The translations under genes were made by a program, and so were the position numbers. The notes under the pieces were generated by a model that was given only the letters and a program-made list of their open reading frames with translations, did no database searches and was not told the DNA's origin. A DNA stretch of 64,000 nucleotides from Salinilacihabitans rarus (GTDB lineage Archaea; Halobacteriota; Halobacteria; Halobacteriales; Natrialbaceae), in NCBI RefSeq assembly GCF_024296665.1, contig NZ_CP100762.1, positions 744,001-808,000 of the forward strand, in the 5' to 3' direction. Of the stretch, positions 30,392 through 43,095 are shown one piece after another (the stretch's first letter is position 1; each line of letters starts with the position of its first letter).

Positions 30392-31057
30392 TCATTCGCC
30401 TGCCCTCGTTGGTGTCAACGACTTCACGCCGAAATCCGACTTGCTACAGTACCGTTCAGCGACCCGGCCAAGCGCCTGCGTCCGCAGCACGTCCGCCACG
30501 TTGTGCAAGGTGAGCTCTGCGAACCACCCGTTCTCGAACGCCGCCACAGCCGCCTCACTCCCATCGAACGGATCCACAGCACCGTACTCGCCATCACACA
30601 GCACCTCGTACACTCCGGCCAGGTCTCGATGCTCCTCGCCGTCAACGGTCGTGTTGAACCGGTCGGCGACGACCGACATCACATCCGCGTACGCCACATC
30701 AGCGAACGGCCACGCCACCCCGAGCCGTGCGTACCGCGTCCGGAGGAACGGCACGTCGAACCCGCCGCGCCACCGCTCCCCATTATACGCGACCAGGAGC
30801 ACGTCCGACCCGCAGAGCCGATCCGCAACGAACCCAGACACGGCCACGAGCAACCCTTCCTCAGACGCGTGCGTCGACACGTTCACCACCGCATCCGTCG
30901 CTGCCTCCACCTCACTCGTCACGTCACCGGGCGGCCGACCGCCCGTCTGCACGAACACGCGCACCCTCATCGACAACCCGAACCCGACCACCGTCACTTC
31001 GTCCTCGACGTCGAATCCGGTCGTCTCGATGTCGAACGCCACTTGCTCCAGCACCAC
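30392..31057 (-). CDS. DnaQ-like 3'-5' exonuclease in HRAMP operon
   Basis: A 221-residue RNase H-fold exonuclease of the DEDD superfamily. ExoI is VAFDIETTGFD (residues 6-16), ExoII is LLVAYNGERWRGGFDVPFLRTRYARLG near 87-113, and YADVMSVVADRFN continues the domain. The C-terminal part ALGRVAERYCSKSDFGVKSL is divergent, so the last acidic ligand is not obvious. The GTG start overlaps the TAG stop of the Cas5-like gene by one base, showing tight coupling. Within the HRAMP context it is a candidate nuclease for target or guide processing. Confidence 0.8.
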   Translation of the reverse strand: MVLEQVAFDIETTGFDVEDEVTVVGFGLSMRVRVFVQTGGRPPGDVTSEVEAATDAVVNVSTHASEEGLLVAVSGFVADRLCGSDVLLVAYNGERWRGGFDVPFLRTRYARLGVAWPFADVAYADVMSVVADRFNTTVDGEEHRDLAGVYEVLCDGEYGAVDPFDGSEAAVAAFENGWFAELTLHNVADVLRTQALGRVAERYCSKSDFGVKSLTPTRAGE

Positions 31058-32028
31058 TACGACTCACCTCCTGCCGCGGCAACTCCGCGCTCCGGAACCC
31101 GATCCTCACCCGCCGGGCGAACACGGAACTCACCGAACCCGAGGCGAGAATGCGTCCCCACACGCAGCACGCCGTTCTTCGCCGTCTCCACCGGGTCATC
31201 ACCAGCATACCGGACGACCTGTCCGTGATCCACCGTCTTTACCGCGTACGTCTCATCACCATCCACGAGCCGCGTCTCCCGACGACGCAGCCCAGTCGAT
31301 GACGGGGCATTCGTCTCCCCTGTATCGACACGCCACCACCACGGCACGCTCTGCGAATCGCCACTCGGATGCTCCGAATCCATCACGTACGGAGACACCA
31401 ACTCGATCCGGCACGACTCCGCGCTCGACTGCGCTGCTTCCAACCGCGAGTAGTCCAGCGACTCCAAGTCCACGAGTTGCGTGTCGACTAGCGACAGTTC
31501 ACCGAACCCGTAGTTCCGCGCGCCGCCGACCTGCAGCCCGTCGAGCACATCCTCAGCGACCGGCACAACCTCGTCATCGCCCCGGCCTCCGTGCAGGTAG
31601 CAGTGAACGTACCACGACACTGAGCGCCGCCGATTCCGTTGCCCGGCCGGTCGCCCAAACCAGCACGTCCCATCGAACGACACCCGATCACCGTGCCGTT
31701 GCAGATCGTAAGCGTTGTGCGCGTCCCGCGACCGTGACGACAGTAACCATCGTTGCGCCGGGTCACGGAACACGAATAAATCCTCGTACGAGGTAACGTC
31801 AGGCAGCGACTGCCCGAGTTTGCCTGCGTACCCGTCTTTGGAGTGTTGCTCTGGGTACTCTCCGTACTCGCCCGGTAGGAACACGCCGTGACTCACGTGC
31901 AGCGACCGACGCGTCTCAGCATCGACCTGCCGCGCAACAGCGTTGAACAACGCGTTCCCCGTCACGAAGTACGGATGCCCGAGATACTGCCCATCCAGCT
32001 CGAACAACACCTGCTGGAGCCGCGTCAT
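31057..32028 (-). CDS. Cas5-like RAMP protein of HRAMP module
   Basis: A 323-residue protein with a diverged RAMP (RRM-fold) architecture. It begins LQQVLFELDGQYLGHPYFVTGNALFNAVA and has two glycine-rich loops: LQVGGARNYGFGELSL near residue 163 and THSRLGFGEFRV near the C-terminus, the usual signature of Cas5/Cas7-type proteins. The placement between a conserved unknown gene and a nuclease matches the described haloarchaeal HRAMP modules, which contain distant Cas5 and Cas7 homologues without a CRISPR array. The ATG at 32028 overlaps the stop of a small repeat ORF (ATGA). RNA binding is inferred. Confidence 0.78.
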   Translation of the reverse strand: MTRLQQVLFELDGQYLGHPYFVTGNALFNAVARQVDAETRRSLHVSHGVFLPGEYGEYPEQHSKDGYAGKLGQSLPDVTSYEDLFVFRDPAQRWLLSSRSRDAHNAYDLQRHGDRVSFDGTCWFGRPAGQRNRRRSVSWYVHCYLHGGRGDDEVVPVAEDVLDGLQVGGARNYGFGELSLVDTQLVDLESLDYSRLEAAQSSAESCRIELVSPYVMDSEHPSGDSQSVPWWWRVDTGETNAPSSTGLRRRETRLVDGDETYAVKTVDHGQVVRYAGDDPVETAKNGVLRVGTHSRLGFGEFRVRPAGEDRVPERGVAAAGGES

Positions 32029-32339
32029 GCACAACCCCCCGTGTTTCCAGTCCACACACTGATACGACGCGACACAACTTCGACGACACCCCACGGGACA
32101 CACACGCTCTTTCCAGCGTCACGACCGGGACAGCGGCTGTAGCTAGCGAACCATCGAACCGGGGCACGACGATCTCGACCGGTGCGTGTCCGGACCCCCC
32201 ACACCCTGTTTCCAGTGTCTTTCACCACTCGCCGCGACTCGACACACACCCCATTTCCAGTGTCCTCACACGCCTCGTTTCCAGTGCCACGGGCGCGAGA
32301 CCGGCTCTCGTCATCGAACACGGTACACACGTCACGCAT
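32025..32339 (-). CDS. Small Cys-containing repeat ORF inside HRAMP operon
   Basis: This 104-codon frame fills what would otherwise be a 303-base gap in a tightly packed operon. It starts ATGCGTGA across the stop of the 291-residue protein (8-nt overlap) and its TGA overlaps the ATG of the Cas5-like gene (ATGA). The translation MRDVCTVFDDESRSRARG is followed by five copies of a [DG]-T-G-N-x-V-C-V-like motif (GTGNEACE, DTGNGVCV, DTGNRVWG, DAGKSVCV, WTGNTGGC). All intervals are multiples of three. It has no known family and its composition is unusual, so it may instead be a translated repeat region with a non-coding role. Confidence 0.45.
   Translation of the reverse strand: MRDVCTVFDDESRSRARGTGNEACEDTGNGVCVESRRVVKDTGNRVWGVRTRTGRDRRAPVRWFASYSRCPGRDAGKSVCVPWGVVEVVSRRISVWTGNTGGCA
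32044..32300 (-). repeat. Five interspersed short repeats inside HRAMP operon
   Basis: On the minus strand the motif GACACTGGAAACnGGGTGTG occurs in five degenerate copies. The invariant TTTCCAG core (plus strand) starts at 32044, 32110, 32209, 32254 and 32278. Spacings are 66, 99, 45 and 24 bases, all multiples of three but not regular like a CRISPR array. The copies lie between the conserved unknown gene and the Cas5-like gene. Confidence 0.75.
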
Positions 32340-33207: not shown

Positions 33208-34160
33208 GCCGACCCACCTCCCGGCACCGCAACGTCCCCATCACGCGCCGCCACACGCGCCTGCAACGCCCGCACGAACGCCGGACGACACTCAGCCGCC
33301 CACATCTCATCCTTCTCCTCCATCGCCTGCGTCACCGCCTGTGCCCTGTTGAACACACGGCGGACCTCCTGCTCACTGTACAGCGGGTTAATCACCCAGA
33401 CGTCAGCGATGCCAGCACCGAAGTTCCGAGCGCCACCGACCTGGAACTCGAACTGATCACTATGCGCGTCGAGGAACGACACCGCTTCTAACAGTAGGCC
33501 GACGAACTCCGGCTTCAACTCTCGGAGCGTCAGCTTCCACGTCCCCTCGACGTTCCCGAGGACATCCCGGTCCGCTTGCCGGAGCGGCTGGCCACCGTCC
33601 TCCTTGTTCCGCGACCGTACCTGGTTCGAGATTTGTCGGAAGTGTGCCTCCGCCTCTCCGTCCAGGACATCCACCTGTCTCCGGATTGGTGAAAACGACA
33701 CCGGGCGACGCAGCAACGTCCCCGGCTTATCACCGAACCCACCAAACAGGTCGTAGATCACACACCCATCGTCGTGTTCGTCGAGACACGAACCCTTCTC
33801 GTGGTAACCCGAATCGAGGTCGCGCTCGTACACGTTCGCACGCATGTAATCAGCGTCCGGTTCACCCGGATGACACGCCGTCGTCCCAGCAATCTGGAGC
33901 ACCTGCTCACAGCCGTGCCGCAGCCACCCAGACAGCGTGAACGGGCTGATTTGTCCTTCAATCTGATTCATCGGATCGTCCGCCTCGTACCGATCCGCCG
34001 ACGCATGATGCCGATCCGTGACGATTCCGTCTCCTGGGGAGAGCAGATCAATTTCGAGCCCCACGTACACGTGCGGTAGCAACATCTCCTCCACCGACCG
34101 CGGCAGGTCCAACTCGACATCGAGATGCGAATCCACGAGCGCCGACTCGCTCGACGTCAT
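33204..34160 (-). CDS. Cas7-like RAMP protein of HRAMP module
   Basis: A 318-residue RAMP-fold protein. It has VYVGLEIDLLSPGDGI as a first strand, then QIEGQISPFTLSGWLRHGCEQVL, comparable to the P-x-S-x-x-x-G-x-x-R segment of Csm3/Csf2-type Cas7, and GKPGTLLRRPVSFSPIRRQVD in the thumb region. Near residue 247 the loop QVGGARNFGAGIADVWVINP is the RAMP glycine-rich signature. This makes it the likely backbone subunit that would polymerise along a guide RNA. No catalytic Asp of type III Cas7 is evident. It overlaps its neighbours on both sides by 4 nt (ATGA). Confidence 0.8.
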   Translation of the reverse strand: MTSSESALVDSHLDVELDLPRSVEEMLLPHVYVGLEIDLLSPGDGIVTDRHHASADRYEADDPMNQIEGQISPFTLSGWLRHGCEQVLQIAGTTACHPGEPDADYMRANVYERDLDSGYHEKGSCLDEHDDGCVIYDLFGGFGDKPGTLLRRPVSFSPIRRQVDVLDGEAEAHFRQISNQVRSRNKEDGGQPLRQADRDVLGNVEGTWKLTLRELKPEFVGLLLEAVSFLDAHSDQFEFQVGGARNFGAGIADVWVINPLYSEQEVRRVFNRAQAVTQAMEEKDEMWAAECRPAFVRALQARVAARDGDVAVPGGGSA

Positions 34161-34690
34161 CGCTCACCACCCCAGAACAACCCGCGAACCACGCCGCCAT
34201 CTGGTCGACCCGCACGACGTTGCGCCTCACCCAAAGACACCTTCGCAGGCGATTCAGGCGTTTCCTGTGCCTCAACATCAGACGCGACGTTTGCAACCGA
34301 ACCACCATCTGGGACCAGACGGACGGACTTCGTCGCCGCCGCACTTACCGCCACAACTTCCGGCGAGAGCAACACCGGCCACGACGACTGCGTCGCGCCA
34401 TCGCTGCACCATCCAACACGACCCTCAACCACCAGTTCACGCACACCCAGCGTATACTCCTCGGGAAGCTCGTGCGCTTCACCACTGCACACCACGTAAC
34501 CGACCTGAAACATCACCTCTCCGGCTGGACGAAACACGTACACAACAACCGATTCACCCTCACGAAGAGGCGAGCCGCACACTTGACACGTCGCGACCCC
34601 TTCCCCGAGCGAAATTTTTTCCAGTTGGTTTATTTCTTCAGTGAAATCTCGATCCGTGCCTTCTTGTCGGTCTGGAATTGAATCCTCCAT
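34157..34690 (-). CDS. Zinc-finger protein, first gene of HRAMP operon
   Basis: A 177-residue protein with a treble-clef-like zinc site: ATCQVCGSPLREGESVVVYVFRP gives C-x2-C, and YVVCSGEAHELP supplies a later Cys and His. The segment FTLGVRELVV-like (EYTLGVRELVVEGRVGWCSDGATQSSW) is a block I associate with a widespread haloarchaeal family of unknown role. The last 60 residues are low-complexity. The gene overlaps the Cas7-like gene by 4 nt and is preceded by a long leader with hairpins, unusual in a genome dominated by leaderless starts. It may be structural (a Cas8/Csf1-like position) or regulatory. Confidence 0.75.
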   Translation of the reverse strand: MEDSIPDRQEGTDRDFTEEINQLEKISLGEGVATCQVCGSPLREGESVVVYVFRPAGEVMFQVGYVVCSGEAHELPEEYTLGVRELVVEGRVGWCSDGATQSSWPVLLSPEVVAVSAAATKSVRLVPDGGSVANVASDVEAQETPESPAKVSLGEAQRRAGRPDGGVVRGLFWGGER

Positions 34691-34710
34691 TGGGGTTACC
34701 TCGGATTACC

Positions 34711-34782
34711 AGGAAGCCCCGCCCGCGTGCTCCACCACGCGGGTATCCTCTACGCTGGATCTCCCGTTGGGCCGGGCTTCCT
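34711..34782. ncRNA. Hairpin-rich leader element upstream of HRAMP operon
   Basis: A nested structure can be drawn on either strand. An inner hairpin has an 8-bp perfect stem CCCGCGTG / CACGCGGG (34722-34729 with 34736-34743) and a 6-nt loop. An outer stem AGGAAGCCC / GGGCTTCCT pairs 34711-34719 with 34774-34782. It lies in the apparent 5' leader of the HRAMP operon (start codon at 34690). The plus-strand reading GGAAGCCCCGCCC followed by a hairpin resembles the ends of haloarchaeal IS200/IS605-type elements and their TnpB-associated RNA. It could be a solo transposon end or a functional RNA; neither is proven. Confidence 0.5.
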
Positions 34783-34785
34783 TAT

Positions 34786-34807
34786 CCAATGCATTAGCAC
34801 GCATTGG
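34786..34807. promoter_or_regulatory. 22-bp palindromic operator, copy 1
   Basis: This site has arms CCAATGC and GCATTGG around an 8-nt centre. It lies on the HRAMP side, where the minus-strand TTTTA box at 34808-34812 would place the transcription start just inside it. Its sequence matches copy 2 at 18 of 22 positions. Confidence 0.65.
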
Positions 34808-34818
34808 TAAAAGCGTTA

Positions 34819-34840
34819 CCATTGCATTAGGATGCATTGG
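34819..34840. promoter_or_regulatory. 22-bp palindromic operator, copy 2
   Basis: Arms CCATTGC and GCATTGG flank an 8-nt centre. The centre-to-centre distance from copy 1 is 33 bases, about three helical turns, so two dimers could bind on one face. It lies immediately upstream of the ATTAAACC box (34849-34856) of the winged-helix gene. The obvious candidate binder is that adjacent regulator. Confidence 0.65.
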
Positions 34841-34876: not shown

Positions 34877-35131
34877 ATGGATGGAGTAATGCCCAAAGAT
34901 CGAGATGAGGAGACGGGGAAATACACCGAGCGGTATACTCGGGAGCAATTTCTCTCTGCCTTAGAATCATTAGGGGGATCAGCGGGTACTCAGGAAGTAG
35001 CCGACGAAGTTGATTGTGCCTACAGAACTGCTCACGCTAAACTCACTGAATTGGAGGAAGAAGGAAAACTCACTTCTCGAAAGGTTGGGAACGCTAAGCT
35101 ATGGGAACTAGATTCTTCTGAAGATGGATAA
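34877..35131 (+). CDS. Winged-helix transcriptional regulator
   Basis: An 84-residue DNA-binding protein. After a charged N-terminus comes FLSALESLGGSAGTQEVADEVDCAYRTAHAKLTELEEEGKLTSRKVGNAKLWEL, a clear winged helix: helix 1, helix 2 (TQEVADEV), recognition helix (YRTAHAKLTELEEE) and the wing. The ATG at 34877 lies 27 nt after the ATTAAACC box. It is divergent from the HRAMP operon and the two palindromes sit between them, so it probably regulates itself and the operon. The diverged TBP gene follows by 39 bases, possibly on the same transcript. Confidence 0.8.
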   Translation: MDGVMPKDRDEETGKYTERYTREQFLSALESLGGSAGTQEVADEVDCAYRTAHAKLTELEEEGKLTSRKVGNAKLWELDSSEDG

Positions 35132-35170: not shown

Positions 35171-35710
35171 GTGAAAGTCGTGAATATGGTCGGTTCGGGC
35201 TCGCTCCATCTTGAGATTGATCTTGAAACACTCTCTGACGAAATCGGTCAACCTCGGGCTCGATATGACCCTGATAAGTATCCTGGCATGTATCTTCGAT
35301 TCGAGGAAGATGGCCCGCTGATCACTGTATACAGGACTGGCAAATACATCATTACTGGACCAACTTCTGAGGAGGAGCTGTTCGACCTTCGGGAACAGTT
35401 CCTGAAGTTCCTGTCCGATATGGACGTCACTGGAAATGCGACTGACGAGTGGTTCTCCGTTCAAAACTACGTCTGTACTGAAGACCTCGGCCAGACTCTG
35501 AATCTTAATGCACTCGCTATCGGATTGGGACTGGAACGGACGGAGTACGAACCCGAACAATTCCCAGGCCTCATTTACCGTCCTGAAGGATACGACGGGG
35601 TAGTTCTGCTCTTTGCTACCGGCCGCGTCGTGATTACCGGGTGTCGGAGTACAGATGCGGCAGAACAGATATTCACCGACCTGAAGGACGATTTGACGGA
35701 GTTTGTTTGA
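35171..35710 (+). CDS. tbp: Diverged TATA-binding protein
   Basis: A 179-residue paralogue of archaeal TBP, with the two direct-repeat halves of the saddle. The second half is close to the family: VQNYVCTEDLGQTLNLNALAIGLG, YEPEQFPGLIYRPEG, VVLLFATGRVVITGCRS. The first half (VVNMVGSGSLHLEIDLETLSDEIG, YDPDKYPGMYLRF, ITVYRTGKYIITGPTS) is more diverged than in a housekeeping TBP. It begins with GTG at 35171; an SD-like GGTGGGGTGA is 7-10 nt upstream. Haloarchaea use multiple TBPs for promoter selection; this one may serve the nearby accessory genes. Confidence 0.9.
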   Translation: MKVVNMVGSGSLHLEIDLETLSDEIGQPRARYDPDKYPGMYLRFEEDGPLITVYRTGKYIITGPTSEEELFDLREQFLKFLSDMDVTGNATDEWFSVQNYVCTEDLGQTLNLNALAIGLGLERTEYEPEQFPGLIYRPEGYDGVVLLFATGRVVITGCRSTDAAEQIFTDLKDDLTEFV

Positions 35711-35839
35711 ATCGGGTAACTCGCGTTCGCATATGGGATGCTTCTCCGATCAAATCAACATTTAAGTCGGGTGCAGGAGCAAGGTGCTGTATGTCCATTT
35801 GCCTCGTCCAATCGAACATTTCCACCAAACTCATCATCC

Positions 35840-38800
35840 ATGACTGACGAGCAAACCAAAGAGATTCGGCGGCGTTTAGACGAGGACCTCTCTCTAGGTG
35901 AATTCGAACGCGATTACCGCTCCACGGGAGAGGCAGCAACGCAGTTCTTCCAAGACCTCTTCGTTCAGGTCCTCAACTTCGAAGAGACGACGTCACCTCT
36001 TGGTGACGCAACCTGGCAGGACATCCCTGTTCACGAGTGGCCGAACACAGCTCGGGCAAATGCCGCTCGGCTCTTCGCCGAATCAGGGAACTTCCGCGTG
36101 ATCTATGTCGAACTGGAGAAGCTGACCCGGACAGCCGAACGGAATGCGATCCAGAGCCTCACTCGGTCGGACAAAACGAGTGGCTGGGCTATCGATGGTT
36201 CCTTCCTAACTGTATTCCACGCACCTGATGAGGACGTCTGGCACCTCGTCACTCCCTACGAGGAGGGGACGGACGACATCACGACTGGACGTCCAGTGCT
36301 GCGCAGGTACACGCTCGGTGAGGGTGAAACTCACCGCACCGTCGCCGACGCGCTGTCGAATATGGACGCCAGCAAGGGGCGGCTGGCAGAACGTATCGAC
36401 GAGGCATTCCGAGTCAAGCCAGTTACCAAGGACTTCTACGAGAATTACAAGAACGCGTTCGACACGCTCACAAAGGAACTTCGTAGGAAAGGACTAGGAA
36501 CGGAGGATGCCGACCGGTATGCGCACGTGACGCTTAACCGGTTGATGTTCTTTTATTACATTCAAAAGAAGGGCTGGATCGGTGAGCGGAAAGACTTCGT
36601 CCGCTGGTTCCACGAACAGTATGAAGAGTCCAAAGATGAAGACGTATTTCATGAGAAGTGGCTCTCGGCACTTTTCTTTGATGGGATGAATCAGCCAGAA
36701 GGGAAGAGTACTGATGCGAACCTCCCCCCCGAGGTAGAATCGGCCGTTACTGGATTACCGTATATGAACGGCGGACTCTTCCAACCAACTGATGAGGACG
36801 AGCTTGATGCTTTCTTATCTGATGCTGCGTTGAATTCGGTTATTCGTGGGTTCCTTGAACAATACAACTTTACGATCACCGAGGAGAGTCCGTACGATAT
36901 TGATGTCGCTGTGGACCCAGCGATGCTCGGGAAGATCTATGAATCTCTGATCGCGGAGGAAGAACGCGACGAGGCGGGCATCTTCTACACGCCGCGTATT
37001 GAGGTTGACCTGATGTGCCGACTATCTTTATATGAACAGTTCTGTGATCACGCTAACGACCTCACGGCCGAACATCGTCACCAAATTATCCGGTTCATAT
37101 TTTCCGAGCCTCAGAACTGGGACTCTGAGGAAGCAGGTCAGACTGAAGCTCTGGAGGCCATCCTATCCGATCTTCGTATTGTTGACCCGGCGTGTGGAAG
37201 TGGTGCGTTCCTTGTCGGGATGAAACAGGTCATCCTCGAACTATACCGGAAATTAGGCGTTGAGCCGGACTACGAACTGAAAGAACAGGTAGTTAATGAA
37301 AACCTCTATGGCGTGGATATAAAGGGTTGGGCAGTCCGAGTCGCGGAGTTCCGATTGTGGTTATCTCTAATTGAGAGCGCCGACACTATTCCGGAAACAC
37401 CCGTTTTACCGAATTTCCGATATAAATTGCAAGTCGGAGATAGTATCATACAAACGATTGATGAAGAACGGGTGTCGTTGGACAGTCTTGAACGAACGGT
37501 CTCTGGCCAAACAGGAGAACTGATAGAGGAGTTGACTAACCTGAAAGATCGATACTTTGAGGGTGAAAGTGGCCTGTGGGACGACATCCAGGCCAAACAA
37601 CGCGAGGTCCTTATACAACATATTGAATCGCGGATTGAAGAATTAGAGAATACGACCAGCCAGCAGACATTAACTGGGGGAATTACGGAAGAGTCCGAAG
37701 CTGAAGAAGCAGAAATTGAGCAACGAATTGCATCTTTGGAGGAAACCAAGACAGCCGTCGGTGAAGCTTCTGATGATGACTTATTCCTCTGGGATCTCGG
37801 GTTTCCCGAAGTGATGTTAAACGGTGGGTTTGATATTGTCATCGGGAATCCGCCGTATGTCCCAAAAGGCCGGATTAATGACGTGAACGAATCTCGGTCC
37901 GATTACAAGTCTGATCTGCAAGCATTTGTCGAGGACACGTATGGAGAATCGATTTCGGGCCATTCTGACCTATTTGTCTACTTTTTCTACAAAGGTATTG
38001 ACCTCTTGCGACCCAACGGAACGCTCACATACGTAACGTCAAACGCGTGGCTTAGTCAGAACTACGGGTCGGACTTACAGGAAAGTCTGCTTAAGCATAC
38101 CTCACTCAAGCGAGTGTTGGATAATCAAGTTCAGCGTACCTTCTCTGATGCGGATGTGAACACAGTCATAACGAACCTGAACAAAACTCAAAACAGCGAG
38201 TTGGATGACTCAGTGTCGTTCATTTCACTTGACCGTCCATACGAATCTCTTATAGATTTATCCACTATTGACCGGATGCTGTCGACAGATGCCTCTACGG
38301 ACTCAGTGGCGTACAATGGCGAGTCTTTCCCCGTACATAGTGAGGACGAATTCCACCGGTATCTCATCCCAGAGGATACCCTCTGGCGGCTTGGTGGAGG
38401 TACTGTTCTTGACCCGAAGGATGGCCAGCGTAATCACCTTCACAACGGCGATCAGGTCCAGCCAGCAGGAACCTACTCAAATGGGAACTGGGGTGTATTC
38501 TTCAGGGCACCACTCATCTATTTCGAAATTTTAGAAAAATGTGAAAATATCGAAGACGCAGAATCAGTCGCAGCTAAGATTAGACGTGGGATCACAACTG
38601 GTGCAGATGACTTCTTCTATCTCCCACTACCCGGACATTCATCGAAGTTCTTTGAGTCCGAGTTTGACGATCAAACTGGTGATCTCCATCTCTATCTGAA
38701 GGATGAAGAGGTTAAGACCAATTTCAAAGAACAAGGGTTCACCGTTACCGAGCCTATGTTCACAGTCGAGCGTGAGTACGTTGCAACCACAATTGATGGT

Positions 38801-39592
38801 CTCCCCGAAGAATTTGTTGACAGTTCGCTTACTTTCTCTGCTAACGGTCAAACGTACATACCGAATGTAGTATTGCAATCTCCAGAAGAGACCTCTGGTG
38901 TTTCGCTGTCACCAGAGGAGTTCAACTATCTGGTTCTCATGGCTCATGGGTCCAAATCAAGCCTTCAGTCAGGTGTACAGGAATATATTGAGTGGGGTGA
39001 ATCTTGGGAGCCGGCTAGGTACAGCAAGTATCCAAATCGGAACTTGGTACAGGGCCGTGGTGGTAACTGGTACGACCTTGCACAGGAGAAGTTCACCCCT
39101 GATGTTGTAACCTCCAAGAGAGTTGATAAGCGTGTGATTGCCGCTGCAAATGAGATTGGAGCTTATGCAAATCAAAATGTGCAGTGCATTAACTATGATG
39201 GGCCTCCATCCGGAATAGCGGCTGTAATGAACTCGTCATTAGCCTGGTTGTCAATCGAAATAGTTGGGAATCGTGGTCTTGGAGGTGGTGCACTTGAGAT
39301 CGGTGTATCACCCCTAAAACGTGTAAAAATCCCTGTCCCCGATGATAACATATCTGCGGAGGAGTACCGAGCGGCGTTGGATGATAAGGATCTCTCACAA
39401 AGTATCTACGAACAATTCGGGGCCGAGGAGCCGGAAGATGTAACGTTGGAGACTATGTCACCTGGACGGCGTACTGTTGACGAGCTTGTACTTGGAGAAA
39501 TACTAGGGCTCTCTGAGGATGATCAAGTTAAAATCGCTCAAGAATTGCTTCGAATAGTCAAGAACCGTATTGCGAAGTCAGAGAGTACGTAA
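35840..39592 (+). CDS. Eco57I-like DNA adenine methyltransferase (type IIG/BREX-like)
   Basis: A 1250-residue protein. The methyltransferase core has motif I DPACGSGAFLVGM at about residue 448 and the amino-methylation motif NPPYVPKG at about 670, followed by SDLFVYFFYKGIDLLRPNGTLTYVTSNAWL, as in the Eco57I/PglX class. The N-terminal 440 residues include ETTSPLGDATWQDIPVHEW and an IFYTPRIEVDLMCR segment before motif I. The C-terminal 400 residues form the target-recognition part. No nuclease motif of the type IIG PD-(D/E)XK kind was evident at the N-terminus. The PLD-helicase gene begins 2 bases after its stop, so the two form one system. The start was placed at the ATG where family similarity begins. 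Confidence 0.88.
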   Translation: MTDEQTKEIRRRLDEDLSLGEFERDYRSTGEAATQFFQDLFVQVLNFEETTSPLGDATWQDIPVHEWPNTARANAARLFAESGNFRVIYVELEKLTRTAERNAIQSLTRSDKTSGWAIDGSFLTVFHAPDEDVWHLVTPYEEGTDDITTGRPVLRRYTLGEGETHRTVADALSNMDASKGRLAERIDEAFRVKPVTKDFYENYKNAFDTLTKELRRKGLGTEDADRYAHVTLNRLMFFYYIQKKGWIGERKDFVRWFHEQYEESKDEDVFHEKWLSALFFDGMNQPEGKSTDANLPPEVESAVTGLPYMNGGLFQPTDEDELDAFLSDAALNSVIRGFLEQYNFTITEESPYDIDVAVDPAMLGKIYESLIAEEERDEAGIFYTPRIEVDLMCRLSLYEQFCDHANDLTAEHRHQIIRFIFSEPQNWDSEEAGQTEALEAILSDLRIVDPACGSGAFLVGMKQVILELYRKLGVEPDYELKEQVVNENLYGVDIKGWAVRVAEFRLWLSLIESADTIPETPVLPNFRYKLQVGDSIIQTIDEERVSLDSLERTVSGQTGELIEELTNLKDRYFEGESGLWDDIQAKQREVLIQHIESRIEELENTTSQQTLTGGITEESEAEEAEIEQRIASLEETKTAVGEASDDDLFLWDLGFPEVMLNGGFDIVIGNPPYVPKGRINDVNESRSDYKSDLQAFVEDTYGESISGHSDLFVYFFYKGIDLLRPNGTLTYVTSNAWLSQNYGSDLQESLLKHTSLKRVLDNQVQRTFSDADVNTVITNLNKTQNSELDDSVSFISLDRPYESLIDLSTIDRMLSTDASTDSVAYNGESFPVHSEDEFHRYLIPEDTLWRLGGGTVLDPKDGQRNHLHNGDQVQPAGTYSNGNWGVFFRAPLIYFEILEKCENIEDAESVAAKIRRGITTGADDFFYLPLPGHSSKFFESEFDDQTGDLHLYLKDEEVKTNFKEQGFTVTEPMFTVEREYVATTIDGLPEEFVDSSLTFSANGQTYIPNVVLQSPEETSGVSLSPEEFNYLVLMAHGSKSSLQSGVQEYIEWGESWEPARYSKYPNRNLVQGRGGNWYDLAQEKFTPDVVTSKRVDKRVIAAANEIGAYANQNVQCINYDGPPSGIAAVMNSSLAWLSIEIVGNRGLGGGALEIGVSPLKRVKIPVPDDNISAEEYRAALDDKDLSQSIYEQFGAEEPEDVTLETMSPGRRTVDELVLGEILGLSEDDQVKIAQELLRIVKNRIAKSEST

Positions 39593-39594
39593 CT

Positions 39595-42500
39595 GTGAGC
39601 GAAAATATTCAAATAATCGATAACAAGCGCTACTCCCACCTAGACGAGGTATTGAAATCAGGGCTCGAAAGCGACGGTGTTGACCGGGTAAGAATCGCTG
39701 TCGGATACCTCTATATGAGCGGTCTGAAGCGACTTCGTCCTGAACTGGATGAATTCCTCGACAATGGCGGTACGCTCCAGGTCCTGATGGGGAATCCGGA
39801 TCAGCAGGGTTTGGACGAACTCATAGAGGCCCATCAGAACCTCCGTCTCACTGGAACGAAGTTCAAACAATCACAGAATGTCAAGTGGAGTGAGCGCACA
39901 GAGATTCGCGCTGAAACTGCGAATAACTACTCGAACCAACTGCTCTACGAGAATCCTACTGCGGAGAATCAAGCGTTTTTCACAAAACTGATCGACTGGC
40001 TGGAACAGGGACGTATTCAGCCTAAGTTGTATCTTCAGGAGCGGTTTCACGCGAAGGCGTACCTCTTCGAGAAAGACGAAGGAGACATCTTCACCCCCAA
40101 AGACGTCGGCGTCGTTGGCTCGTCGAACCTCAGCCTCAGCGGCCTCCACAGCAATACAGAACTCAACGCCCCGGTCTACAACGAGAGGGTTACCCAACTG
40201 AAGGAGTGGTTCGATGACTTGTGGGACGACGCCGTTGAATTCGATGCCGATCTGCTGGACGCGTTTGAAGACTCGTGGGTTTCGAACAATCCTGGGCACG
40301 TCTCAACAGATGATGAACCACCGGCACTTCCGGGTGAGTCGCTTCCAGACGACACGGTAGAAACACTTCGGGATGTCAGTGCGGGAACTGGGCTCCCTGC
40401 ACCGTACTTGGTGTACGCGAAGATCCTCTATGAACTGTACAAGGAGACGTTGGAGACTGCTGAGGACTACCTGCAGTCGTTCGACGTGTACGAGGACCTC
40501 TACGAGTTCCAGCAGTGGGCAGTGAATCGCGGGATCCGAATCGCCAACAAGTACGACGGGGTTCTGGTCTCCGACGTTGTCGGGATGGGGAAGACGTTTG
40601 TTGGCCTCGGGCTTCTCGAACACTTCCACGCCCGGAATCGGCTCCGTGGGAACAAGGGGAAGATGCTGATCATCTCGCCGAAGCATCTCCAGCCGATGTG
40701 GGAGCGGATGGTCAACAAGCAGTACAACTTCAACGCGGAGGTGATCAGCCTGGGGATGGTGTCGAAGGAGGATTTCCACGAGACGCTACTTGAAGAGCAC
40801 GACGACGCGTCAGTGTGTCTCGTCGACGAGGCGCACCACTTCCGGAACGACGATACGCATCGGTACAATAATCTACAGGCGTTCCTGCCGACGGTCAATC
40901 AGACGATTCTCCTGACTGCGACACCGTATACGAAGAGTGCGTGGGACGTGTATAATCAGATCAAGCTGTTCCACATCGAAGACCTCACGCAGATCCCGAT
41001 TACGCCGCCGAACCTCTATGACTTCACGAAGATGGCGGAGAACGATGAAACGGATCTCTCGAACCTTCTGAGTCACGTGATGGTGCGGCGGACTCGACAA
41101 GACATCATCGACCAGTACGGCGAGGAAGACGAGGAGGGTCAAGTGTACCTCCAGATGGGTGGGGAACGACGGTACCTCCCGGACCGGAACTTACAAACGG
41201 TCGATTACAATCTGCACGAGACGTACTCGACCGCAGACGGCGTCAATGATTCTCTGTATGATGCGATTGTGGAGACGCTGGAGGACCTCACGTTCGCTCG
41301 GTACTCGCTTGGACAGGAAGACTACCTGAAGACTGGGTACGCGAACCAGGACCCGTATCAAAACCTCTCCTCGATGGGGAGGAGCATTCGTGGGTTGATG
41401 AAGTCCAACCTTCTGAAGCGGTTGGAAAGCAGTGTTCATGCCTTCTACACGTCGCTTACCCGGATGCTGCGGAGTTACCGGATGTTCCGTGATCTCCTTG
41501 ATGAGGGGACTGTGGCTGTCGGAAGCGATGTCTCGGAGCTCATCAACAGTGGCGAGCAGATCGACACCATTCTTGAGGAGATCGATGAGATGGTTGAGGA
41601 TGGAGAATACGCGGCTTACCAAACGGAGGCCTTCCATCTCGAAGAGCTGAAGCGTGATCTTGAGACTGACATCCAACTCTTGGCTGAACTGCAAGACACC
41701 TTGGAGCCGTTCCATCAGGACATCCAGGATGACTACGCGATGGATGACAAGGTTGAGCAGCTCCGGCAGCTTCTCGGGAATCTCCGTATTGGGTCACATG
41801 AGATTCTCCAACGCGGTGACCGCGCTGAGAAGCTGATCGTGTTCACCCAGTTCACAGATACGGTGAAGTACCTGGAAGCTGCGTTTGAGCAGTTCCAAGA
41901 TCGGGGACTGCTCTCTGATGACGTTCGGTTTGCAAGTGCGACCAGTGATACCTCGAACGTCGAGAAGCTCATTCAGCGCTTCGCCCCTGAAGCGAATGAT
42001 GCGCGAGACAAAATCGACCCGAGTGACGAGATTGACGTGTTATTTGCAACCGACGTGGCAGGGGAGGGGGTCAATCTTCAGGATGCGAATTTAGTGATCA
42101 ACTACGATCTGCACTGGAATCCTCTCCGTCTAATTCAGCGGATTGGTCGTGTTGACCGTCTTGGAAGCGGGCACGAAGACATCTATGCACTCAATTTCCT
42201 GCCGGAAACGGAACTCGAAGAGGAACTCGGTATCGTTGACCGCGTTGAATCTCGGGTTCAAGAGATTAGTAACGTCCTCGGTGAAGACGGGGAGATTCTG
42301 AGTCCGGAAGACAACGTGAACCGGTCGTACATGGAGGACATCTACGCCGAGGAGGACATTGAGAAGGTCGAAGACGACGTGAACGAGATTATTGGGAGCG
42401 ACGACCTTATCGGTCCCGCGAGTAGCCTACAGGACCTCAAACAGGAGTACCCAGATCTCCTTAGTTGGTTGGATGATCGTGACGGGATTCGGAGTGCGAT

Positions 42501-43095
42501 GGAGTGGGATCGAGAGTACGACGGCGTCGTCATTGTCTACCGGCAAGGAGACTACACGACCCCATACCTCGTGACGTTCCCAAGCGAAGGAGGGCAAGAC
42601 CTCGCCTCACAGGAAAAAGACACCATCGTCGAAACCATCACGTGTCCCGTCGATGAACCAGTCGCGTCCGTTGACGCAGAGACGTTCGACAGTCGCTACG
42701 AACGGGCTGTGCAAGTGGCGCGGACGGAGTTCGGCGATGACATGGGTAAGCGCCGTCAATTCCAGCGAGAAGCTCGCCAAGGTGCAAGTATCGACCGAGA
42801 CTACGTGGTTGACGAACTCGGAGAGGTTGCGTCGTCTGTAGAGAACACCGACCAACAGCGGACACTAGCGCAGTTCCAAGATATCGTTGAGACTGTCTCG
42901 GCAGACCAGATCCTCAACGAATTCAGGGACCTTCGGAACGGGGAAGTTACGGGTGAAGAGCTGGTGGCTGCTGTCCGGGAGATCATCTCTCGGTACAATC
43001 TGCAAGAGAAATACGAAGAACGGCAGGAGTGGGCGGAAGAGCAGGAAGAGCCTCCGCACGTCGTCGCGGGGATGTACCTGAAGGGCCAAGAGTAG
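39595..43095 (+). CDS. PLD nuclease-SNF2 helicase fusion
   Basis: An 1166-residue protein starting with GTG two bases after the methyltransferase stop. Residues about 20-215 are a phospholipase D-like domain: VRIAVGYLYMSGLKRL, LQVLMGNPDQQG and RFHAKAYLFEKDEG with GSSNLSLSG, giving one H-x-K-x-n-N catalytic half. Residues about 300-900 are an SF2 helicase of the SNF2/RapA type: VVGMGKTFVGLGLLEHF (Walker A), CLVDEAHHF, ILLTATPYT, then EIDVLFATDVAGEGVNLQDANLVINYDLHWNPLRLIQRIGRVDRLGSG (motifs V and VI). The C-terminus is helical. Pairing with a methyltransferase suggests a restriction-like system in which this protein translocates and cuts. Confidence 0.9.
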   Translation: MSENIQIIDNKRYSHLDEVLKSGLESDGVDRVRIAVGYLYMSGLKRLRPELDEFLDNGGTLQVLMGNPDQQGLDELIEAHQNLRLTGTKFKQSQNVKWSERTEIRAETANNYSNQLLYENPTAENQAFFTKLIDWLEQGRIQPKLYLQERFHAKAYLFEKDEGDIFTPKDVGVVGSSNLSLSGLHSNTELNAPVYNERVTQLKEWFDDLWDDAVEFDADLLDAFEDSWVSNNPGHVSTDDEPPALPGESLPDDTVETLRDVSAGTGLPAPYLVYAKILYELYKETLETAEDYLQSFDVYEDLYEFQQWAVNRGIRIANKYDGVLVSDVVGMGKTFVGLGLLEHFHARNRLRGNKGKMLIISPKHLQPMWERMVNKQYNFNAEVISLGMVSKEDFHETLLEEHDDASVCLVDEAHHFRNDDTHRYNNLQAFLPTVNQTILLTATPYTKSAWDVYNQIKLFHIEDLTQIPITPPNLYDFTKMAENDETDLSNLLSHVMVRRTRQDIIDQYGEEDEEGQVYLQMGGERRYLPDRNLQTVDYNLHETYSTADGVNDSLYDAIVETLEDLTFARYSLGQEDYLKTGYANQDPYQNLSSMGRSIRGLMKSNLLKRLESSVHAFYTSLTRMLRSYRMFRDLLDEGTVAVGSDVSELINSGEQIDTILEEIDEMVEDGEYAAYQTEAFHLEELKRDLETDIQLLAELQDTLEPFHQDIQDDYAMDDKVEQLRQLLGNLRIGSHEILQRGDRAEKLIVFTQFTDTVKYLEAAFEQFQDRGLLSDDVRFASATSDTSNVEKLIQRFAPEANDARDKIDPSDEIDVLFATDVAGEGVNLQDANLVINYDLHWNPLRLIQRIGRVDRLGSGHEDIYALNFLPETELEEELGIVDRVESRVQEISNVLGEDGEILSPEDNVNRSYMEDIYAEEDIEKVEDDVNEIIGSDDLIGPASSLQDLKQEYPDLLSWLDDRDGIRSAMEWDREYDGVVIVYRQGDYTTPYLVTFPSEGGQDLASQEKDTIVETITCPVDEPVASVDAETFDSRYERAVQVARTEFGDDMGKRRQFQREARQGASIDRDYVVDELGEVASSVENTDQQRTLAQFQDIVETVSADQILNEFRDLRNGEVTGEELVAAVREIISRYNLQEKYEERQEWAEEQEEPPHVVAGMYLKGQE

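Follow-up and report, generated by a model that had tools for sequence, protein, structure and literature searches.

A structured leader RNA before the HRAMP operon of Salinilacihabitans rarus: one copy of an apparently undescribed haloarchaeal family and candidate RNA gene switch

The HRAMP locus and its leader

The window, by which we mean the whole 64,000-nucleotide stretch of Salinilacihabitans rarus analyzed here (contig NZ_CP100762.1, positions 744,001 to 808,000), carries an apparent HRAMP operon; operons of this type are CRISPR-derived and array-less (PMC8730458; PMC12669027). The operon is on the minus strand and the ATG of its first gene is at 34690, so the leader is read on that strand from 34785 to 34691. 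For the product of the first gene, an AlphaFold model (pLDDT 64) and a fold search gave nothing usable; further into the operon there is a weak Cmr3 match at 31057-32103 (minus) and a DEDD exonuclease match at 30392-31057 (minus). Next to the HRAMP locus, at 35738-43095 (plus), are type IIG restriction-methylase and PLD/Snf2 helicase genes, and this neighborhood suggests a defense island.

The leader folds as a three-way junction of helices P1, P2, and P3. A second hairpin, P4, lies 3' of the junction, abuts the AUG, and draws its 5' arm from the 3' strand of P1. The parts in the window's copy are as follows.

34157..34690, minus strand: first HRAMP operon gene, 177 aa, CxxC-containing, the ORF behind the leader
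34652..34666, minus strand: coding motif CAAGAAGGCACGGAT, codons 9-13, consensus NWW RAN NNY NNC GNN
34688..34690, minus strand: AUG start codon of the first HRAMP gene
34691..34785, minus strand: complete leader RNA, about 95 nt, from its predicted 5' end up to the base preceding the AUG
34692..34697, minus strand: P4 3' arm AACCCC, 1 nt from the AUG
34712..34724, minus strand: P1 3' arm GGGCGGGGCTTCC, the last part of which doubles as the P4 5' arm
34714..34720, minus strand: P4 5' arm GGGGCTT, competitor of outer P1
34725..34729, minus strand: P3 3' arm CACGC
34736..34740, minus strand: P3 5' arm GCGTG, in a hairpin that can be extended by 3 bp in this copy
34741..34748, minus strand: P2 3' arm GGATACCC
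34757..34765, minus strand: P2 5' arm GGGAGATCC
34769..34781, minus strand: P1 5' arm GGAAGCCCGGCCC, outer stem
34786..34807, no strand: palindrome CCAATGCATTAGCACGCATTGG, probable operator between the TATA and the transcript start
34808..34812, minus strand: TATA-like TTTTA
34819..34840, no strand: second palindrome CCATTGCATTAGGATGCATTGG, probable operator upstream of the TATA
34889..35131, plus strand: divergent winged-helix regulator gene, 80 aa, FaeA/DUF7342-like

On the correct strand the fold energy is -47.0 kcal/mol, against -34.0 ± 3.3 in dinucleotide shuffles (z = -3.9, with 0 of 200 shuffles as stable). The initial annotation had described a hairpin nested inside an outer stem. Both stems are real, the outer one being P1 and the nested one the extended P3 hairpin CCCGCGTG-GTGGAG-CACGCGGG; the third helix, P2, had been overlooked, and the motif quoted there, GGAAGCCCCGCCC, is on the opposite (plus) strand, where it is the complement of the P1 3' arm.

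The TATA is found 30-33 nt 5' of P1 in 102 related copies of the leader, a spacing that places the predicted transcript start about 6 nt before P1. At the loci inspected, two palindromes often flank the TATA, with a sequence that varies by locus. Divergent small regulator genes related to one another are present at 46 of the 59 copies where this could be judged, starting a median of 90 nt upstream of P1, and at least 4 of the remaining copies have another winged-helix type, as judged by eye; the divergent regulator in Halobacterium salinarum is annotated as belonging to the FaeA/PapI family. A separate layer of control, over transcription, is probably exerted by the divergent winged-helix protein through the palindromes that flank the TATA. 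Directly after the winged-helix gene in the window is a TATA-binding-protein paralogue (35171-35710, plus), and TBP-like genes are also found 3' of other leader copies, one recognized by Pfam (L153:3660-4208, minus) and two by sequence resemblance (L165 and L204).

Conservation of the three-way junction

Orthologous HRAMP loci were retrieved by way of their Cas7-like protein. The three helices are kept in more than 50 orthologous leaders, just 5' of the first gene, and most of these fold this way individually, which bears out the initial annotation in its view of a structured, regulatory-type leader; the covariation over HRAMP loci, which it had proposed as a check, is strongly positive. A plain MAFFT alignment of 42 leaders, not fitted to any structure, was enough for RNAalifold to recover P1 and P3, 9 of whose 15 pairs show double changes. 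The leader is also present in a second HRAMP clade, which has an unrelated first ORF and a Cas7-like protein with only about 55% identity.

Two covariance models were used, R1 built from 23 HRAMP leaders and R2 restricted to P1-P3, with the flanks excluded and ending at P1. R2 recognizes the window's leader at 34713-34781 (minus) with 60.1 bits and E = 6.5e-12. When 102 copies are aligned to R1, the covariation score is 0.528, versus 0.187 ± 0.008 for shuffled alignments and at most 0.09 with the partners slid; 89.2% of cells are paired, 19 of 22 pairs have changes on both sides, and P1-P3 contain 425 double-change cells against 114 ± 12 shuffled. These values are biased upward, since the copies are related and were aligned by fitting them to the structure; relatedness also makes the shuffle statistics overstate significance. 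In these copies P1 has 91.3% of its cells paired and all 11 of its pairs changed on both sides, P2 has 76% paired, and P3 has 100% paired, including one position with CG in 47 copies, GC in 45, AU in 9, and UA in 1. It is unlikely that fitting created four pair types at a single position. Among the loops, the 3' end of L2 is GAAA (last A in 96%), the second position of the P3 loop is U in 89%, and a G precedes P2 in 91%, with the remaining loop positions variable.

Rfam 15 has no matches within the window at gathering scores, and none at E ≤ 1 in seven loci carrying leader copies. In the open-access literature, we found no paper on the element. The stretch is apparently one copy of an undescribed, structurally conserved haloarchaeal RNA placed at mRNA starts.

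A second fold next to the start codon

Because P4 reuses the P1 3' strand, the P1 and P4 folds are mutually exclusive. Most copies keep complementarity between the P1 3' strand and the tail that leads to the AUG, and they do so with differing sequences, in arm pairs such as GGGUUC/GAACCC, GGCUUC/GAAGCC, GGUCUUC/GAAGACC, GGCCUU/AAGGCC, and GGGUUGUU/AACAACCC. Over 134 leaders, the pairing score is 16.06 with each leader's own tail and 13.09 ± 0.20 with tails swapped between loci; for the 55 tails lacking AACCC, it is 16.74 versus 12.99 ± 0.32. As neither R1 nor R2 holds any P4 pairs, this test is independent of the models. The best P4 helix reaches at least 6 bp in 84% of the 134 leaders, compared with 39% of shuffled ones, and ends 0 nt from the AUG in 114 and 1 nt from it in 20. 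Column-wise covariation in P4 is modest (52 double-change cells versus 20.5 ± 4.2 shuffled), in part owing to a one-base shift of the tail from copy to copy, and the count of pair types has no excess over shuffles.

In 119 of the 134 leaders, the minimum-energy fold commits half or more of the P4 5' arm to upstream pairing, so the two states exclude each other in the predicted folds as well; forcing P4 costs a median of 5.2 kcal/mol, by energies for standard salt and not molar KCl. The window's own P4 is weak (4 bp, with bulged pairs in addition), and the predicted balance favors P1 by about 6 kcal/mol (again for standard salt, not molar KCl), so that this particular copy may be held largely in a single state. 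For the family, comparison and energy modeling point to a putative expression-platform hairpin that would be mutually exclusive with an aptamer-type stem.

The significant R2 matches that could be read give a further view of the tail, which is absent from that model, although some of them were in its building set: an AUG and a P4-type tail follow within 30 nt in 30 of 30, and the coding motif described below comes after the AUG in nearly all of them. The single non-significant match that was read (E = 0.31) has neither a P4-type tail with AUG nor the coding motif.

A motif within the coding region

The motif NWWRANNNYNNCG occurs at a fixed place, +22 to +34, within unrelated coding sequences. 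Counting from the base after the AUG, +24 is A or T in all 101 copies, and +26 is A in 96, +30 a pyrimidine in 98, +33 C in 91, and +34 G in 99 of them. Stated by codon, with the same ORFs serving as the baseline, the third base of codon 9 is A or T in 102/102 (baseline 0.34), the second of codon 10 is A in 97/102 (0.29), the third of codon 12 is C in 91/102 (0.39), and the first of codon 13 is G in 100/102 (0.42). Across codons 9-13, the amino acids vary widely and the third positions are fixed. The window's copy deviates from the consensus at NNC. RNAalifold and mutual information find neither structure within the motif nor pairing of it to the leader.

On these comparisons, the coding motif is a part of the leader element. 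Since its distance to the AUG is fixed while the P4 loop varies, the arrangement suggests that it may be read relative to the initiating ribosome. One copy (L248, G012:C2:148417-148480) has an intact leader and a retained coding motif with an ORF that stops at codon 9.

Distribution and downstream genes

Matches to R1 (E ≤ 0.1) are found in 225 of 392 haloarchaeal genomes and matches to R2 (E ≤ 0.001) in 179 of them, spanning 60 of 95 genera. The HRAMP Cas7-like gene was detected in 96 of the 392, so in at least 83 genomes the RNA is present and no such gene was detected. The leader RNA is not HRAMP-specific, and HRAMP is one client among many. To look for spread beyond the haloarchaea, 294 genomes drawn from the phylum were scanned, and all 23 that match come from the same order. 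Several copies per genome occur, some on plasmids and some near transposases. The window's genome has 3, the HRAMP copy (R2 E = 3.6e-10) and two others (E = 6.2e-8 and 7.2e-8) located 5' of SWIM-type genes. Named carriers include Halobacterium salinarum 91-R6 on plasmid pHSAL1, Halomarina sp. PSR21, Halolamina sp. CBA1230, Natronomonas gomsonensis, Halosimplex salinum, and Halogeometricum limi. A module array is seen on one contig (L159, G069:C34:1-10300), with 4 leader copies in 10 kb, all in one orientation and 5' of SWIM-like and related genes.

SWIM zinc fingers account for 15 of the 52 first or nearby genes scanned; among the rest are a TBP paralogue, an HNH protein, and uncharacterized genes, and short ORFs follow many additional copies. 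At L197:268-1587 (plus), downstream of another copy of the leader, a CxxC region like that of the first HRAMP gene is apparently fused to HNH endonuclease and helix-turn-helix domains; the NCBIfam match of this ORF to IscB is probably due to the HNH domain. On pHSAL1 (L269, NZ_CP038632.1:116539-116610, minus), an unannotated ORF of 43 aa (MSMKTSAGLQDSGTE...) stands behind the leader, a member of a short-ORF family that recurs in this position. At two loci (L167 and L181), IS200/IS605 genes, TnpA-like and TnpB-like as judged from sequence, are directly 3' of the short ORF and are probably insertions.

Proposed function and alternatives

We think it likely that the leader belongs to a haloarchaeal family of cis-acting leader RNAs that gate translation by exchange between P1 and P4. 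The parts from which this model is assembled, namely P1-P3, P4, their overlap, the adjacency to the AUG, and the coding motif, come from comparison of the copies; from them we infer that the exchange would occur in the cell, with P4 as the OFF state, translation as the level of control, and an effector in existence. The transcript would start about 6 nt before P1, and its 5' region would form the three-way junction, leaving the tail single-stranded and the start codon open. If outer P1 opened, its 3' strand could pair with the tail as P4, whose base 0-1 nt from the AUG would block initiation, and the balance would be set by an effector that stabilizes or destabilizes the junction. A transcription terminator was rejected on sequence, as P4 is followed by the AUG with no U tract.

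The closest known systems are translational riboswitches, which likewise have a 5' multi-helix junction with a P1 strand common to a second hairpin that masks the start, their own promoter, and copies before several genes. They differ in that the genes behind this leader are unrelated to one another and are mostly small zinc-finger proteins or proteins of unknown function, so no ligand is implied, and in that the element extends into the coding sequence, usually has a DNA-binding regulator adjacent, and has no Rfam match; the cis-regulatory families of Rfam 15 are alike in general kind only. According to a 2021 paper, the fluoride riboswitch of T. kodakarensis was at that time the only natural archaeal riboswitch determined by experiment (PMC8241225). 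A more specific form of our model, in which this is a new natural haloarchaeal riboswitch class whose small-molecule or ion ligand would govern the translation of defense and zinc-finger genes through P1/P4 exchange, with a second signal read in the first 13 codons, is offered tentatively. Zinc or another metal as the ligand would be a guess, made because many of the downstream proteins carry zinc-finger motifs. Protein-binding autoregulatory leaders of the ribosomal-protein type also have a structured leader before the AUG, one that a protein could lock, as might be so here, but in our family the first gene differs between copies, and general autoregulation by the first gene product is excluded for that reason.

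The leader might instead be constitutive, with the junction and P4 positioning or protecting the mRNA 5' end and tuning translation without any conditional switching. P1 is favored in most copies (the median of 5.2 kcal/mol above), and many copies already have a dedicated regulator at the DNA level; however, a fixed structure would have no need for the complementarity between tail and P1 3' arm that is kept across many sequences, and we regard this reading as unlikely. Processing of the leader to a stable trans-acting RNA, for instance one that guides or scaffolds the HRAMP Cas5/Cas7-like complex, might be suspected of a well-structured RNA adjoining a CRISPR-derived operon of the array-less kind, and the initial annotation had considered a guide role. 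That role is disfavored by the at least 83 genomes with the RNA and no detected HRAMP, by the AUG just downstream in every significant match read, by the coding motif that ties the leader to an ORF, and by the lack of a hypervariable segment, leaders being near-identical in loci of different species; we consider it improbable. We hold much the same opinion of a DNA-level element (a mobile inverted repeat, a recombination site, or a regulator-binding hairpin). The multiple copies per genome, the clusters, the plasmid copies, and the nearby transposases would suit one, yet the near-fixed TATA spacing, the AUG adjacency, and the motif in the coding frame would not, nor would the G-U pairs in P1 (22 G-U at pair 21/118) or a structure conserved where the sequence is not. 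An exact-pattern scan of viral contigs, covering one sequence form, found 0 copies.

The initial annotation had raised the possibility that the leader is a solo transposon end of the IS200/IS605-TnpB type, and that origin did not survive comparison. IS200/IS605 right ends and the TnpB RNA share with the leader their short GC-rich hairpins and, in one case, 14 identical bases, with the TnpB fragment end at G000:C1:712264. The 3 TnpB 3' ends read in the window's genome end in GAGGATGTCA and have at most 14 nt in common with the leader (GGAAGCCCCGCCCG), whereas the leader lacks both a tnpB gene and the GAGGATGTCA end. R2 scores those 3' ends at no more than 11 bits (E = 0.19 in 5 kb), as opposed to 60 bits for the leader, and about 66 kb separate the leader from the nearest TnpB fragment, which lies beyond the window. 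Unlike a transposon end, the leader is promoter-proximal and AUG-adjacent, conserved with covariation in that promoter-to-AUG position before unrelated genes, and we give this origin next to no credence.

Significance

The leader is very short or absent on many haloarchaeal mRNAs and, to our knowledge, natural riboswitch-like leaders are almost undocumented in archaea. The element described here is a candidate for a new class of natural RNA gene switch. A leader family backed by covariation, with an alternative fold at the AUG, would be a direct handle on how archaeal translation is gated without strict reliance on a Shine-Dalgarno sequence, and the copy on pHSAL1 makes it testable in the culturable Halobacterium salinarum 91-R6. 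It also connects the CRISPR-derived HRAMP with many other modules that have one control architecture in common: a divergent winged-helix regulator, palindromes around the TATA, a leader RNA, and a coding motif.
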